This document shows positions 33,498 to 41,500 of a DNA stretch of 64,000 bases, one piece after another. The stretch lies in assembly GCA_031292625.1 (NCBI GenBank), contig JARLGU010000018.1, positions 1 through 64,000 of the forward strand, read 5' to 3'. The position numbers were made by a program, and so were the translations under genes. The stretch is from Capsulimonadaceae bacterium (GTDB lineage: Bacteria; Armatimonadota; Armatimonadia; Armatimonadales; Capsulimonadaceae). Below the pieces are notes generated by a model. It saw nothing but the letters and a program-made list of their open reading frames with translations. It had not been told where the DNA came from and did not search any database. Numbering within the stretch: the first letter of the stretch is position 1; each line of letters starts with the position of its first letter.

Positions 33498-34337
33498 ATG
33501 AAGTCATCGTCCAGAGTTGGTTTTACTCTCATTGAGCTTCTCGTCGTTATCGCTATTATTGCGATATTAGCAGCTATTCTATTTCCGGTTTTCGCAACGG
33601 CCCGCGAAAAAGCAAGGCAAACATCCTGCGCAAGCAATATGAAACAGCTTGGGCTCGGCCTGCTTCAATACTCGCAGGACTATGACGAGCTCATGCCCTG
33701 TGGTACGCAGGGAGCCGGAAATGTGATCAATGGAGTTACGCAGGACGGACGAGGTCTCGGATGGGCCGGACAGGTCTATGCCTACGTTAAGAGCGTTGGC
33801 CTGTATGCGTGCCCTGACGACACGCATGTCGTTCCAAACCCAACGTGGGGACAATATCCCCTCTCGTACGCAGAAAATGAGAATATTGTTTTCCAGTACA
33901 GTTATGTCAATGGCTGGCCATTTGAATCGGAAGTGCCGACGACCAAAATGACCGCCCCAAGTATGACGGTTCTCCTATGCGAGGTCGCTGGAGCGTTCTA
34001 CCCAAATTTGACCGACAATATGTCGCCAATGGCCAACGGTTGGGCCCAGCCTAGTTGGAACCAGGGAACGTATTTGACGGGTCTTCTCGGCGGCCGGGCG
34101 TTCAACACGGACGCACTCAACAAGCCCGCGATCCACAACAACGGCGTCGGGAGTAACTTCCTCGCATGCGACGGGCACGTCAAATACTTGCTTGGCAGCA
34201 AGGTGAGCAACGGCTACTCCCCCACTTCAACGAACACAGCGCAGGCGATCAACAACAGCACCGGACAAGCGGCCGGCACAGCCAATATGAGCGATGGCGC
34301 AGGCGGAACGTTCACGATGACGTTCAGCACTCTTTAG
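33498..34337 (+). CDS. DUF1559 / H-X9-DG pseudopilin-like protein 3
   Basis: A 279-residue protein with leader MKSSSRVG and the cleavage site before [20 protein letters not shown]. The conserved [20 protein letters not shown] follows. The C-terminal motif is [25 protein letters not shown] fixes the start. The end ([11 protein letters not shown]) closely resembles that of paralogue 4 ([10 protein letters not shown]), suggesting a subgroup. It is in the operon of the GntR/LacI regulator and a secreted hydrolase. Confidence 0.93.
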
Positions 34338-34354: not shown

Positions 34355-36616
34355 ATGACATTCACAAAAACGAAATGGCCGCTCATCGCGCTCGCCGCTC
34401 TCACGTTGATCGGAAGCAATAGCGCATCCGCCGAACCAATCACGCTCAGCGCACCCGGCATCAGCCTGCAGGCGCTCACCGACGCACGCGTTCAGGTGAG
34501 TGACCAATCCGGCGTTCCCCGTCTCGTCCTCGGAGGCTATCGCCTCGTCTGGAGCCCTCCCGCGACGGACGCCGGGAGCGCATCGCTCGTCTCGCTTACC
34601 GATGGAACGAAGGCAATCCAGATCGATTACACGATCAAGGGCGATCCAAGCGGCAAGATCAAGATTCAGGGGCAGTTCTCCGCCGGCGTTAACCGCGTGC
34701 ACATCCGGTACGACGTTTGGGGCCCCGACGATCTCAATGCAGGCGGCGCAATGATCGGCTGCGTCGCCCAACCCGCGACGACGGCGACTACAACTGTTAA
34801 GCTTGGACGATGGGTCAGGCCGGACGGCGGCGGCGTCCCGTATGAAGTCCCCGACGGCAATCTGTTCGGATACCAACTCCCCGGCGAGAGCGTCTATCTC
34901 GCTCTGCACGGCAACACGGACTGGCGCGACCAATGGAGCGTCCACTTCCCGGCCGCCAAAGCCGAGACGGGCCACTTCGTCGCGGAGGGCGATCTCGTCC
35001 TGACCACGGCTAGACCGGCAGCGGCCGGCGCTATTCTTGCGGGGCGCCCTCTCGCCCTCGACATCTGGACCGATCAGCCCAACAACATGTGGTCGTCCGG
35101 AGCGAAACCGTTCGGTCTTAAATCACAGACGGTGAACACATCCGCGAACCCAAAGACCGTCACGCTCACCTGGACCGCGCACGATTTCGACGGTCAGGTC
35201 GTTGCCAGCGGAACCGACCGCCGCCTACTCGCAAGCGGCGAGGCGTGGGATCGTCCACTCAGCATTCCGGCTCCCAAGCAGGGCATCGTGTTCGTTGACG
35301 TGGATGCTTCGAACGGAACGGACACCGTATTTTGCCGGACGAACCTGGCAGTTCTTCCTCAACATGCCTTTCTGTCGGGCGATGAAAGCATCTTCGGCCT
35401 GTCGGCGTTCTTCCCGCTACCGTCCGAAGCCGCCGCGGAATCGCTGCTTCAGCGAATCGGCGTGCGATGGATTCGGTTTTCGGCATTAACGAACGAAAGA
35501 GCCAACGCGTTAAAGATTCACCAAAACTCACACGCCGGCATGCCGCCGTCCGGAAAGCCCGGCAGCTACGATACCGATCCAGCCAAGAAGACGCAATGGA
35601 TCGACAAAATCTTGAGCGAGGCCGACCAGCACAACGCGCGCTACCTGGAACTGTTCAACGAGTGGAACATGGATGGCGGAATCGGCAAAGGCAAGTGGGC
35701 GGATACGTATGCCAGGGATTGGCTCGTCCCGGTCAACGAGGAACGCACGAAGACCGGCGCGAAGGTCAAGATTATGTCGATGGGCCTCGCCGGCATGGAC
35801 GAGGGTTTTCTCGATAAAGTGCACGACGCGGGCGGTTGGAACCTGTTCGAGGCGCTCGCGATTCACGCGGGACGCGGGCGCTATACCGCGGACTATGGCG
35901 GCGACGAGCAAGGTTCAGCCGTGAAGCCGGACTACTGGAACTTCCTGGGCACGATCGAGGCCGCGAATAACGTCCTCGCGAAGTACGGTCGCAAGGAGTT
36001 ATGGGTCACGGAAGCATACGCCTGCACGTTTCCGAACAGCTCCTGGTTTGACACGTACAGGCACTCCGCCGAAAACGTCGTGCTTTCCTACGCCCTCGCC
36101 GCCGCCAAAGGCGTTCGCGTGATGGACTGGTACCAGCTCAACGACGGCGTCTGGTACGATCACGGCGGCGTCAACCCCAAGGACTCCGAGTACCACTACG
36201 GCCTGCTTAACCGCGACCTGAGCCCAAAGCCATCGCTTCTCGGCTACGCCACGATCGCAGCGGCGCTCGATCAGGCGAAGTTCGTTCGATGGATCAAATT
36301 CGTCAACACACATACGAAGGGCCTGCTCTTCAGCACGCCGCGCGGACCGATGGCGGTGCTCTGGGATAGAACCGACGGTTACATGCTGAACACAAGACGC
36401 GACATCAAAACGGACAAATTCGCCGCTCCAGAGCCCTGGGTCGATGATTGGAAGACAAAGGTCGCGCTGGAACTCCCTGCATCCGGCAAGTCCCTTCGGG
36501 TAATCGACTGCGTCGGCCGCGAGCGCACGATCCCGGCAGCGAACGGAACGGCGAATGTAACGCTCGACGGAGCGCCGCGAATCGTGTACGGTGTCGCGCC
36601 GGGGATCGGAGAGTAA
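34355..36616 (+). CDS. Exported clan GH-A glycoside hydrolase
   Basis: A 753-residue protein with a signal peptide (PLIALAALTLIGSNSASA). The first 330 residues are beta-rich, with no clear family match. The (beta/alpha)8 barrel (about 345-640) has acid/base E436 in LELFNEWNMDG and nucleophile E553 in LWVTEAYAC. A small beta domain ends the protein. The architecture resembles GH39/GH5-like enzymes with an added N-terminal module; the substrate is unknown. It begins 17 bases after the pseudopilin stop and is the last gene of the second tandem module. Confidence 0.82.
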   Translation: MTFTKTKWPLIALAALTLIGSNSASAEPITLSAPGISLQALTDARVQVSDQSGVPRLVLGGYRLVWSPPATDAGSASLVSLTDGTKAIQIDYTIKGDPSGKIKIQGQFSAGVNRVHIRYDVWGPDDLNAGGAMIGCVAQPATTATTTVKLGRWVRPDGGGVPYEVPDGNLFGYQLPGESVYLALHGNTDWRDQWSVHFPAAKAETGHFVAEGDLVLTTARPAAAGAILAGRPLALDIWTDQPNNMWSSGAKPFGLKSQTVNTSANPKTVTLTWTAHDFDGQVVASGTDRRLLASGEAWDRPLSIPAPKQGIVFVDVDASNGTDTVFCRTNLAVLPQHAFLSGDESIFGLSAFFPLPSEAAAESLLQRIGVRWIRFSALTNERANALKIHQNSHAGMPPSGKPGSYDTDPAKKTQWIDKILSEADQHNARYLELFNEWNMDGGIGKGKWADTYARDWLVPVNEERTKTGAKVKIMSMGLAGMDEGFLDKVHDAGGWNLFEALAIHAGRGRYTADYGGDEQGSAVKPDYWNFLGTIEAANNVLAKYGRKELWVTEAYACTFPNSSWFDTYRHSAENVVLSYALAAAKGVRVMDWYQLNDGVWYDHGGVNPKDSEYHYGLLNRDLSPKPSLLGYATIAAALDQAKFVRWIKFVNTHTKGLLFSTPRGPMAVLWDRTDGYMLNTRRDIKTDKFAAPEPWVDDWKTKVALELPASGKSLRVIDCVGRERTIPAANGTANVTLDGAPRIVYGVAPGIGE

Positions 36617-36628
36617 GTAGCGCGGCAG

Positions 36629-37237
36629 CTATGGCGTGCTGTAGAGCGAGGTAAGCAGGGCGACGACTTCCTTATGGAACTTGCGGAAGGAACGAGAGTT
36701 CCGCAGGGCTTCGTCGATGTCGAACTTCGCCGCAAAGGCTGCTTGGTGCAGCGTTGGACGGTATCCGCCTTCACTCGCCGCAGCTCGCCTAATCCAACCT
36801 TTAGCGTCGCGAACGGCATCAACGTCCTGCGGCGGTTCGCATCCAGGCTTCAACTTGCCGCATTGGACGAGAGACCTGCTCGCTGCAATAAACCAAGACT
36901 CGAACTCCCATGAAGCCATGACGAACACGGAAGGCGTTGCTCCGGCAATTCTCGATAGACGCGCCTGGATAGTTGGGCCGAGATCGGCCGGGCAGTCTTT
37001 GTCAGCATCATGCACCATGACAATCGCGCCACGCGGGCCAAGATTAATCTTGGCCCGCGCCACTGCGCGTTCGAGCTCAGGTACTGACCGAAGCTGGGTT
37101 TTAGGCAGCGGCACAGGGGGCGGCGTTATGGGACACCAAGCCGGAGTTACCGAAAGCGCTATTCGCCTGATAACCAGAGGTACCGCCTGTGTCTCCCCTT
37201 TGCCTTCGACAATGCATTGAATTGTCGGTGCAGTCAT
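36629..37237 (-). CDS. DUF4276 protein, TOPRIM-like partner of the AAA ATPase
   Basis: A 202-residue protein. Two features fit a TOPRIM fold: a glutamate in IQCIVEGKGETQAVP (E11) and an acidic pair in AIVMVHDADKDCP (D77 and D79). A family block ASWEFESWFIAA follows. DUF4276 proteins often neighbour AAA ATPases, and TOPRIM nucleases work with RecF/OLD-type ATPases in defence (known for OLD, Gabija and PARIS). Its start overlaps the ATPase stop by four bases (ATGA). The gene is AT-richer than its neighbours. Nuclease activity is inferred from the acidic residues only. Confidence 0.8.
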   Translation of the reverse strand: MTAPTIQCIVEGKGETQAVPLVIRRIALSVTPAWCPITPPPVPLPKTQLRSVPELERAVARAKINLGPRGAIVMVHDADKDCPADLGPTIQARLSRIAGATPSVFVMASWEFESWFIAASRSLVQCGKLKPGCEPPQDVDAVRDAKGWIRRAAASEGGYRPTLHQAAFAAKFDIDEALRNSRSFRKFHKEVVALLTSLYSTP

Positions 37238-38448
37238 GCTGCATCAGCCCCATTGAATAGGTTAAGCTGCCGTTCTAACAATGCGTCGTCCGAATCAAGC
37301 AGGTTCATACGCATCAACTCTCCTGGCGTATAGAGCTCTCTCTTTATCGTTTCTAGCGCTCGTCCACTAAGCGGCTCAATTCGAGTTTCCCCTCGGTAAT
37401 TCGACACGCATATCATTTCGTCCGGCTTGATTGACCTGTTATCCAAGAGTTCCGTACTATGGCTGGTAATAACCACCTGGGTATGCTCGGTAGCCTCGCG
37501 AAGTGCATCCAGAAGCAGGCCAGCGGCACCGGGATGCAAAGCTGCTTCTGGTTCCTCAATACCGACAAGAGAGACATGTTGCCGCCCGGAATCATTCTGC
37601 AGAAGCGCTGTAAGAATCGCAAGTGCCCGTAACGTCCCGTCCGACATGTTGGCTGCATCAAAGTGCCATGGATTTATACTTGAACCAACGATCTGGTCGA
37701 ACAAAATGGTTTCCTTAGGTCCATACTCTTTCTTCGACACGCCCTTAATACCCGGAACGACATGGGCCAAATATTCCTCGATTCGGCTCATTGTTGTTGG
37801 AGACTGGCGGGAAAGTCTCCCAATTACGCTTGCTAGATTACCGCCATCTCTACGAAGCAAATCACCAGCATCAGGCGACTGCAGATTGCGAATTCCTTCC
37901 GGCTCAATACTGTATACGGCCATTCTTCGTAAGCGATCATAAACATCCCTAAATTCTGGCCGCCCCGAAATTGTGACAAGATATAAGCGATCCCTTGATG
38001 CTTGTGCAGGATGCTGCTCGCCTCGAATAGTAGCTGCACCGTTAGCCACGGAAAAACGAGCAGATTCCGCGAACACTTCGCTCGGATAAATCTCGCAGGT
38101 CTCCTCTTTTACGTACCAGATTCCACTCGTATCCGTTGCGATCGAGAAATGGTATTTCGCAGTGCGTCCTTGTGGTAGGCTCATCTGAGTCTGTATACGG
38201 AAGTGCGTAGGGTGACCTTCTGAGCGTCTACGCACCTCTCGTATTCCTCCTCTATCACGCAACGCGTGGTCGAGAGAATTATCAAGCGCGTCGGCTACGA
38301 ATCGCAAGGCGTCCAGAAAATTACTTTTCCCGGCGCCGTTGGCGCCAACTAAGATCGTTAGTGGACCCAAATCAACATTGCAGCTTTTTATGCTCTTGTA
38401 ATTCGAGAGCTCAACCCTGGTGATTCGGCCTTCTGGCGTATGTAACAC
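37234..38448 (-). CDS. AAA ATPase of the RecF/OLD-like (AAA_21) type
   Basis: A 404-residue ABC-type ATPase. Walker A GANGAGKS is at 35-42, the signature region NMSDGTLRALAIL near 268, Walker B VGIEEPEAALHPG near 300, and the switch ITSHSTELLD near 340. This is the pattern of SMC/RecF-like ATPases in which a short coiled segment replaces long arms. It is coupled by a four-base overlap to a TOPRIM-like DUF4276 gene. Such pairs resemble phage-sensing systems in which the ATPase holds a nuclease in check. Base composition differs from the flanking hydrolase and mfd genes, consistent with transfer. Confidence 0.88.
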   Translation of the reverse strand: MLHTPEGRITRVELSNYKSIKSCNVDLGPLTILVGANGAGKSNFLDALRFVADALDNSLDHALRDRGGIREVRRRSEGHPTHFRIQTQMSLPQGRTAKYHFSIATDTSGIWYVKEETCEIYPSEVFAESARFSVANGAATIRGEQHPAQASRDRLYLVTISGRPEFRDVYDRLRRMAVYSIEPEGIRNLQSPDAGDLLRRDGGNLASVIGRLSRQSPTTMSRIEEYLAHVVPGIKGVSKKEYGPKETILFDQIVGSSINPWHFDAANMSDGTLRALAILTALLQNDSGRQHVSLVGIEEPEAALHPGAAGLLLDALREATEHTQVVITSHSTELLDNRSIKPDEMICVSNYRGETRIEPLSGRALETIKRELYTPGELMRMNLLDSDDALLERQLNLFNGADAA

Positions 38449-38520: not shown

Positions 38521-41500
38521 CTACGTATACCGCCGCGCGCCGCGTACGATCTTTTTCGGCGCAAGGCCGGTGCTGACGCCGACGCGGGCTTCCTGGCTCT
38601 TGTCGGGGAGCGCTTTCGCGAGCAACTCCACCGTCTCCTCCACCGTACGCAGAGTCCGGGCGGGCGTGTCGGCCAGCGGGGTCGTCACGCGGTCGGTCTG
38701 GAACTCGCTGTGCAAGTGGCTGCGCGCGAGAAGGCGTATCCGGTCGGGCGGGAGATTCGTGCCGGCAAAGCGGAATACGATACGCGTCTTCTCCGTGTTG
38801 ATCGAGCCGACGCCGACTTCCTTGCAACGAAGCCGTAGCCGCAGCAGCGCGAGAACGTTCCACACCGCGCGCGGCGGATCGCCGTAGCGGTCTTCGAGCT
38901 CCGACTGGATCTCGTCGACGTGTTCCTTGGTGCGCGAGGCGGTCAGCTTCTTGTAGATCAAAATGCGCTCCGCCTCGCTCGGAATGTACTTGACCGGGAT
39001 GTGCGCATCGAGCGGCAAACTGACTGGCGGCAACTGGAACTCCTGCTCCACCGGCTCACCCTTCAATTCGTTAATCGCCTGCGACAAAAGCTGTGTGTAC
39101 AAATCGAAACCGACAGCCGCCACGGTGCCGGACTGCTCCTTGCCGAGAAGGTTGCCCGCGCCGCGGATTTCAAGATCGCGCAGGGCAATCTTGTAGCCGG
39201 AGCCGAGTTCGGAAAAGTCGCGCAGGGCCGACAAGCGCAGTTCGGCGACTTCGCTGAGCATCTTATCTTTGCGGTACAGGAGATAAGCAAAACCCTGCCG
39301 TTCCGAACGCCCAACGCGACCGCGCAACTGGTACAGTTGAGCCAGGCCTAACTTGTCGGCATTCTCAACGACCATCGTGTTGACGTTGGCGACGTCGAGA
39401 CCGCTTTCGACGATCGTCGTACAAACGAGGATATCGTAATCGCCGTTGTAGAAGCCGACCATCACCTCTTCGAGATCGTCCTCAGCCATCTGGCCATGCC
39501 CTACCCCGACACGCGCCTGCGGACAAAGCTTCTGCAGCTTGGCCGCAATATGGTAGATCGATTCGACCCGATTGGAGACGTAGTAGACCTGCCCGTTCCG
39601 ATCCAATTCGCGCAGGATTACCTCGCGGACAAGTTCGTCGTCATATTCCCGAATATAGGTTTTAATCGGAACGCGGCCTTCCGGAGGATCGTTGATCAGC
39701 GACAGGTCGCGGATTCCGGACAGCGCCATATGCAGAGTCCGCGGAATCGGCGTCGCAGTGAGCGTCATGACATCCACCGACTTGCGAAGCTGCTTGATTC
39801 GTTCCTTGTGCGAGACGCCGAAGCGCTGCTCCTCATCGACAATCAGCAACCCAAGATTGCGAAACTTAACCAACTTGCCAAGCAGTTTGTGGGTCCCGAT
39901 CACAACGTCCACGGAGCCATCCGCTAGCCCCGCGAGCGTACGGTCGGCGTCCGCCTTGCTCACGAAACGCGAGAGCATCTCGACGCGTACGGGATACGGA
40001 TCAAGACGCGCGCGAAACGTGTTAAGGTGCTGCTGCGCAAGGATGGTCGTCGGACAGAGAACGACGACCTGACGGCCGCTTGACGCCACCTTGAACGCGG
40101 CGCGCATCGCGACCTCGGTCTTGCCGTAGCCAACATCGCCGCAAACAAGCCGGTCCATCGGCCGCTCGTCCTCGAGGTCCGCCTTGACATCGTCAATCGC
40201 GCGAAGCTGGTCGCGCGTCTCCTCGTACGGAAACGCCTCCTCCATTTCGAGCTGCCACGGGGTATCCGGCGGATACGGGTCGCGACGGGCCGAATGACGC
40301 GCGGCGTAGAGCTTGATCAGCTCGGCCGCCATCTCCTGAACTTGCTTGCGCGCCGCCTTCGTCGCGCGCGCCCACTCGCCCGTATTGAGGCGATGGAGTT
40401 GCGGCGCGGCGGAATCGGCGCCGATATAGCGTTGAACGCGGTCTACCTGGTCGGTCTGAACATAGACTTTATCGCCGCCATGGTACTCCAGCAGCAGGTA
40501 GTCCCGCTCCGCGCCATCGCCGCCCTTGAGCTTCGTGATGCCAAGGTAGCGCCCGATGCCGTGATGGATGTGCACGACATAGTCGCCCTCACGAAGTTCG
40601 AGATAGGATGCAATACGCAGCCCCTCATTAAACCGTTGCCGCTTGTGCTTGGGCTGTGCGGGGGCGCCGAAAATATCCGGGTCCGCGAGCACCATCATGC
40701 GCGCCTCGGGCAGGCGCACCCCACCCGCAAGCGAGCCTTCCACGATATAGACGCCGGCTTCTTTCGATTTGGGTACGAGACGTTGCAGCGGCGATACCGG
40801 TATCCGATGGGAAGTGAGCATGTCCCGAATGCGCTCGGGCTGCCGAGTTATAAAGATCGTCCGAAGACCATTCCCCTGCCACGAATCCAGCGAATCGTAG
40901 AGCCCGGTGACGCGGCCATGGAAGCTCTCCATGGTAGCGACGTTCACCGCAATATCCTCGCGAATGTTGACCCATCCAAGGGGACGCGGCAGGAGCGAGA
41001 ACAGGACGATCTGGCGCTCGGACGTGAGGTGGCGCACGAGCGTATCGAAGGCGCAATGGATCGGTACGTTCTCATGCAACCACTCGCCGCGCGCCCGGCG
41101 GGATTCCGCAATCTCGTGCATCTGGGCTTCGGTCTGATCCCAGCGCGCCTTAAGCTGGTGCGGCTCATCGATCACCACCAGGGCGTCGCTGGGGATAAAG
41201 TCGAGGGCGCAGAGGTTTTCGGGATAGAGCATCGGGAAGTATACTTCCGTTTGATCGAAGTATATGCACCCGGAAAGATTGGCTATATCGCCTTCGATCC
41301 GCTCTTCCAAACGCATCGCGTGATCTTCGCCGCGGTCATCAAGGTCCTCGGTCCGCAGACGATCCATTGCCTTTGGAAGATCCTTGCGTATCCGGTCAAC
41401 TGCATGCTTGATGCGCGTTTTATCATCGATCGGCATCTCGCGCGCCGGAAGGATGCTGATCCGGTCCAGCTTATCGGTGGAACGCTGGGTCTCAGGATCG

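Follow-up and report, generated by a model that had tools for sequence, protein, structure and literature searches.

The locus and the question it raises

The window (the whole 64,000-nucleotide stretch of DNA that was analysed) contains a gene for an ATPase that overlaps a gene for a DUF4276 protein, which raises the question of whether the two form a new anti-phage system or a known one, and of how such a pair would act. The genes lie between a hydrolase gene and mfd, as an earlier sequence-only reading had placed them, and the four-base overlap that it described was found again (Table 1); this overlap makes translational coupling likely. The mfd gene (1223 aa, minus strand) ends at 38521, 72 bases upstream of the start of the ATPase gene, and the hydrolase gene (34355-36616, plus strand) is convergent with the DUF4276 gene, with 12 bases between the two stops. 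The same reading held that the pair differs in base composition from both neighbours. This was true of the ATPase gene, whose GC content of 50.3% is the second lowest among the 43 predicted genes of the window and suggests acquisition, whereas the DUF4276 gene (58.1%) is close to the window mean of 58.7% and has only a low third-position GC (0.59, against 0.74-0.75 in its neighbours).

None of 40 other genes of the window matched a PADLOC defence model at E<=1e-20, and therefore the local context adds nothing to a defence reading. Rfam gave no RNA in the region of the pair, which argues against a retron-like part, and promoter and terminator scans of the region performed no better than shuffled sequences. 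Synteny with the hydrolase gene was considered as a clue and found to be uninformative, because family relatives lack that gene. Upstream of the hydrolase gene, window positions 33498-34337 encode an ordinary-looking protein with a prepilin-type N-terminal cleavage signal.

Table 1 Features of the gene pair and of the candidate active site of HEC-01B, in window coordinates.
Feature	Position	Strand	Basis or remark
HEC-01A ATPase gene	37234-38448	-	ORF, GTG start, 404 aa
HEC-01B DUF4276 gene	36629-37237	-	ORF, ATG start, 202 aa
Stop/start overlap of HEC-01A and HEC-01B (ATGA, 4 bases)	37234-37237	-	Sequence
E11-G12 codons of HEC-01B (proposed metal-A Glu, E11)	37202-37207	-	Position from ORF start at 37237
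E15 codon of HEC-01B	37193-37195	-	Four residues after E11
D77-A78-D79 codons of HEC-01B (DxD motif)	37001-37009	-	Equivalents of BpOLD D455/D457
E111-F-E113 codons of HEC-01B (proposed metal-B ligands)	36899-36907	-	BpOLD T506/E508 spacing
K146 codon of HEC-01B (proposed catalytic lysine)	36800-36802	-	Candidate equivalent of BpOLD K562

The pair is the catalogued candidate system HEC-01

Comparison with the PADLOC models (2023 set) identified both proteins. The ATPase matched the HEC-01A model PDLC04178 (E 3.5e-149, residues 3-400 of 404), the DUF4276 protein matched the HEC-01B model PDLC04196 (E 8.9e-57, residues 1-196 of 202), and the two genes are adjacent, as expected of HEC-01. Since both proteins match these models over nearly their full length, the pair is a known candidate and not a new system. 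The assignment to HEC-01, already catalogued as a candidate anti-phage system, is well supported; the sequence-only reading had correctly proposed a two-gene candidate defence system made of an ATPase and a TOPRIM-like partner, but had missed its cataloguing.

HEC stands for 'Hma-embedded candidate', a name whose source, the preprint of Payne et al. 2024, is cited in PMC12988326. Several HEC systems are verified according to the literature, among them HEC-04, an ATPase-TOPRIM fusion, and Desulfovibrio piger is listed with HEC-01 in one paper. The literature searched, Payne et al. 2024 aside, yielded no statement on an experimental test of HEC-01 itself, and DUF4276 was not found mentioned there by name. 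HEC-01 has the same gene order as the pair described here, and members of the family lie inside Hma, matching the name, whereas the window copy lies outside any Hma or defence island.

HEC-01A belongs to the OLD/PtuA group of ABC ATPases

Pfam domains AAA_21 (109.7 bits, cut-off 27) and AAA_15 (76.9 bits, cut-off 32.1) were both found in the ATPase. The RecF/OLD-type motifs that had been read from the sequence are present, namely Walker A (G35-S42), the signature MSDGT, Walker B with the catalytic glutamate (E298-E299) and the H-loop SHS, and most of the motif residues are invariant across 45 relatives. A Foldseek search with the AlphaFold2 model (pLDDT 91.9) returned PtuA of retrons and Septu first, together with SMC/Rad50 heads, and the best match of the sequence profile was the T. 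scotoductus OLD protein 6P74 (E 5.1e-17), followed by PtuA and GajA, with AriA far down (E 9e-5). This places HEC-01A in the OLD/PtuA group of ABC ATPases; it is not an AriA protein.

Like the pair here, PARIS consists of two genes, encoding an ABC ATPase and a TOPRIM nuclease, and the ATPase in the window lies above the AAA_21 and AAA_15 thresholds used in PARIS detection. The PARIS partner AriB, however, is a DUF4435 protein, whereas the partner here is DUF4276, as had been noted before: Pfam gave only DUF4276 (PF14103, 34.7 bits, cut-off 30.2), and hhalign found no match between DUF4435 and HEC-01B (probability 0.3). The missing DUF4435 ruled out membership of PARIS. The earlier comparison with PARIS and split OLD systems thus held for the general build, but in the ATPase profile AriA stands behind OLD, PtuA and GajA.

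The OLD family (P2 Old, Gabija GajA and retron Eco8) is nearest to HEC-01A by sequence profile, but carries the ATPase and TOPRIM on one chain, whereas here there are two chains and the TOPRIM-like part is a separate protein. Neither a Gabija GajB (UvrD-like) nor a reverse transcriptase was found among the 40 window genes compared with PADLOC models at E<=1e-20. RloA/RloB and AbiL resemble the pair in combining an ATPase with a small TOPRIM-like partner; the RloB domain PF13707 gave no match to the window HEC-01B at E<=1, and matched 13 of 77 HEC-01B relatives weakly. HEC-04/IbfA likewise joins an ABC ATPase with a TOPRIM, but fused into one protein, and the one-chain HEC-04 reportedly blocks T4 and T5 (PMC12111858). 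Counting against a defence role, a related archaeal OLD-class ATPase acts in the cell cycle (PMC12796447).

HEC-01B is related to TOPRIM domains and carries a candidate two-metal site

The AlphaFold2 model of HEC-01B (pLDDT 95.9, pTM 0.91) was compared by Foldseek with 350,542 PDB chains, a check that the sequence-only reading had proposed. Ranks one and two went to OLD TOPRIM domains, 6NJV with E 9.3e-4 and probability 0.99 and 6NK8 with E 3.9e-3 and probability 0.98, although the TM score was only 0.39-0.42. The outcome that the sequence-only reading had named as refuting, a predicted fold lacking TOPRIM topology, was thus not observed. Profile comparison agreed, as hhalign aligned HEC-01B with an OLD TOPRIM alignment at a probability of 70.1 (P 4e-5) and placed the VEGxxE and DxD motifs opposite their OLD equivalents, whereas controls (reversed and 30 column-shuffled) reached at most 0.4. 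For scale, the RloB and DUF4435 profiles reached 72 and 88 when compared with that OLD profile, and the RloB profile against HEC-01B scored 56.5 (P 1.1e-4). The DUF4276 profile found no match among PDB sequences, and a BFVD fold search with HEC-01B gave nothing clear. Predicted structure, profiles and residues together support HEC-01B as TOPRIM-related.

In the OLD protein of B. pseudomallei (BpOLD), metal A is bound by E400/D455/D457 and metal B by E404/T506/E508, with K562 assisting (PMC6755086). This active-site pattern is matched in HEC-01B in the same residue order and with the same spacing in E-x3-E, in DxD and in the metal-B pair two apart, the counterparts of E400 and E404 (PMC6755086) being E11 and E15. 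The E...DxD pattern noticed earlier was borne out by conservation, D77 being found in all 78 relatives, D79 in 74 (Glu in 3, Asn in 1) and E11 in 76, the last a count inflated because E11 lies inside the search patterns. The candidate catalytic set is larger than the E11, D77 and D79 first proposed. E15 is kept in 71 of 78 relatives (Asp in 5), K146 is invariant in 78/78, and E111 and E113 are both invariant in 78, which again is inflated by their position inside the search patterns; D77, D79 and K146 are outside them. All seven residues are kept in 73 of the 78 relatives, when E15 as Asp and D79 as Glu are allowed. HEC-01B is a predicted TOPRIM two-metal nuclease effector. Two copies have lost the catalytic E11, with Gly and Ala, respectively (L131:7498-8094 and L127:9995-10636); the first retains its ATPase and the second is also without it.

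The two genes are paired across more than ten phyla

To find relatives, an alignment of four DUF4276 sequences was run against a collection with a single genome for each species, and 80 of the 304 relatives found were kept; an alignment of seven sequences (A1) was too diverse for such collection scans. Of 78 relatives that could be assessed, drawn from more than ten phyla including Acidobacteria, Planctomycetota, Actinomycetota, Proteobacteria and Chloroflexi, 76 have the ATPase gene directly upstream of the DUF4276 gene. The junction is an overlap of four bases in 40 of these 76 and of one base in 8, and a gap of 0-15 bases in 23. The family matches, together with this adjacency, exclude chance pairing. 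The pair was found in 10 of 291 genomes of the host's phylum, the host included, while a scan of 18 further genomes from the same family and order found none; this patchy distribution fits horizontal transfer. Among viral contigs there was one true relative (L032), besides many unrelated ATPases; no phage record contained the window protein, and a relative occurs in one unannotated record.

This distribution bears on the location of the pair next to mfd. A RecF/SMC-like ATPase and a nuclease might serve mfd in DNA repair, as the pair lies on the same strand downstream of mfd with no terminator-like site between, and the ATPase resembles SMC/Rad50. We consider such a role highly improbable, since mfd was present in 21/21 genomes searched and the pair in 0/18 of the other family and order genomes, relatives elsewhere have unrelated neighbours, and the GC-poor ATPase gene looks acquired.

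The host genome carries a second, divergent HEC-01 pair (L029:3246-5029, contig C34), which falls into other PADLOC subfamilies (PDLC04177/PDLC04201) and is flanked by tmk on one side and by a gene resembling DNA polymerase III delta-prime on the other. It also carries an RloB-family gene with one in-frame TAG (L180, C5:35245-35766), possibly a decayed RloAB system. The two relatives that break the pairing, L120 and L127, appear to be remnants. At L120:8306-10579, HEC-01B is intact, no HEC-01A was detected and the upstream gene matches Cas12f/TnpB-type models, which suggests that the ATPase was displaced by a mobile element.

Proposed mechanism

The pairing, the family membership, the TOPRIM relationship and the conserved catalytic set are supported directly by our comparisons. 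Building on them and on the related systems, we propose that HEC-01 is a module in which the ATPase senses infection and licenses a metal-dependent TOPRIM nuclease with an abortive outcome, a reading to which we give a probability of about 0.7. We infer from analogy with OLD, Gabija and PARIS that HEC-01A, the proposed sensor and gatekeeper, would assemble as an OLD/SMC-type ABC ATPase, bind ATP and keep HEC-01B inactive or waiting in a complex. A phage factor or an infection state would then be sensed, and a change in the shape of HEC-01A would activate HEC-01B. Two metal ions may be held, one on E11/D77/D79 and one on E15/E111/E113, with K146 assisting. The substrate could be RNA (tRNA, as for AriB of PARIS) or DNA (as for OLD/GajA), and its cleavage would stop phage growth, probably together with the cell. 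In PARIS, AriA sequesters AriB, and sensing of Ocr leads to the release of AriB as a tRNA-cutting dimer (PMC12409363).

HEC-01B might instead be toxic alone and be neutralised by HEC-01A, so that the pair stabilises mobile DNA and defence is a by-product. An ATPase paired with an RloB-type TOPRIM has been validated as a toxin-antitoxin system (PMC10440598), some pairs are carried by Streptomyces plasmids or lie close to transposases, and the genes overlap tightly. We nevertheless regard this as unlikely, as L120 has an intact HEC-01B with no detected HEC-01A, and deletion of ariA in PARIS is harmless.

HEC-01 pairs are embedded in restriction operons of several genomes

In L134 (5396-13812), the order is HsdM-HsdS-HEC-01A-HEC-01B-HsdR, with a four-base overlap at each junction from HsdM to HEC-01B, an unambiguous example of a type I restriction operon that harbours a defence pair. 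In L110 the order is HmaA, HmaB, the pair and HmaC, and in L133, L151, L153 and L165 a methyltransferase resembling type III models lies upstream of the pair. By homology to these example loci, restriction or Hma genes were found at 16 of 80 loci, a rough, uncontrolled count that rests on simple longest-ORF gene calls and on a pooled scan of neighbours of up to 900 aa. Single neighbours of other relatives matched the Wadjet JetA, DISARM DrmB and DpdF models, and Gabija lies beside the pair on a Streptomyces plasmid (L030).

This repeated embedding speaks for a guard role in the genomes concerned: HEC-01 would watch the restriction-modification or Hma system and fire when that system is disabled by an anti-restriction protein of a phage, in the way that Ocr sets off PARIS. 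Embedding among type I and Hma subunit genes recurs in several phyla, PARIS responds to an anti-restriction protein (PMC9122126), and PrrC is likewise found inside restriction-modification loci (PMC12629846). As a general account of HEC-01 we hold it to be possible but rather doubtful, since most relatives and the window copy have no adjoining restriction gene in the scans used, and AriA is only a distant match. The standalone window copy shows that embedding in a restriction operon is not obligatory. A broader proposal, which we consider improbable, is that DUF4276 proteins form a TOPRIM nuclease lineage of their own in which the OLD-type two-metal site is complete. In this proposal HEC-01 would be a portable guard module that joins restriction systems unrelated to one another (type I, type III-like methyltransferase loci and Hma) and, independently of PARIS, kills the cell when they are disabled.

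Significance

The finding is ordinary but sound, a further member of a catalogued candidate system. What it adds is evidence in favour of DUF4276 being a TOPRIM whose active site resembles that of OLD, together with the restriction-operon contexts. The repeated insertion into restriction operons makes the guard hypothesis directly testable. A Pfam domain of unknown function thereby receives a residue-level hypothesis, and HEC-01 joins the ATPase and TOPRIM class of defence systems with OLD, Gabija, PARIS, RloAB and HEC-04.
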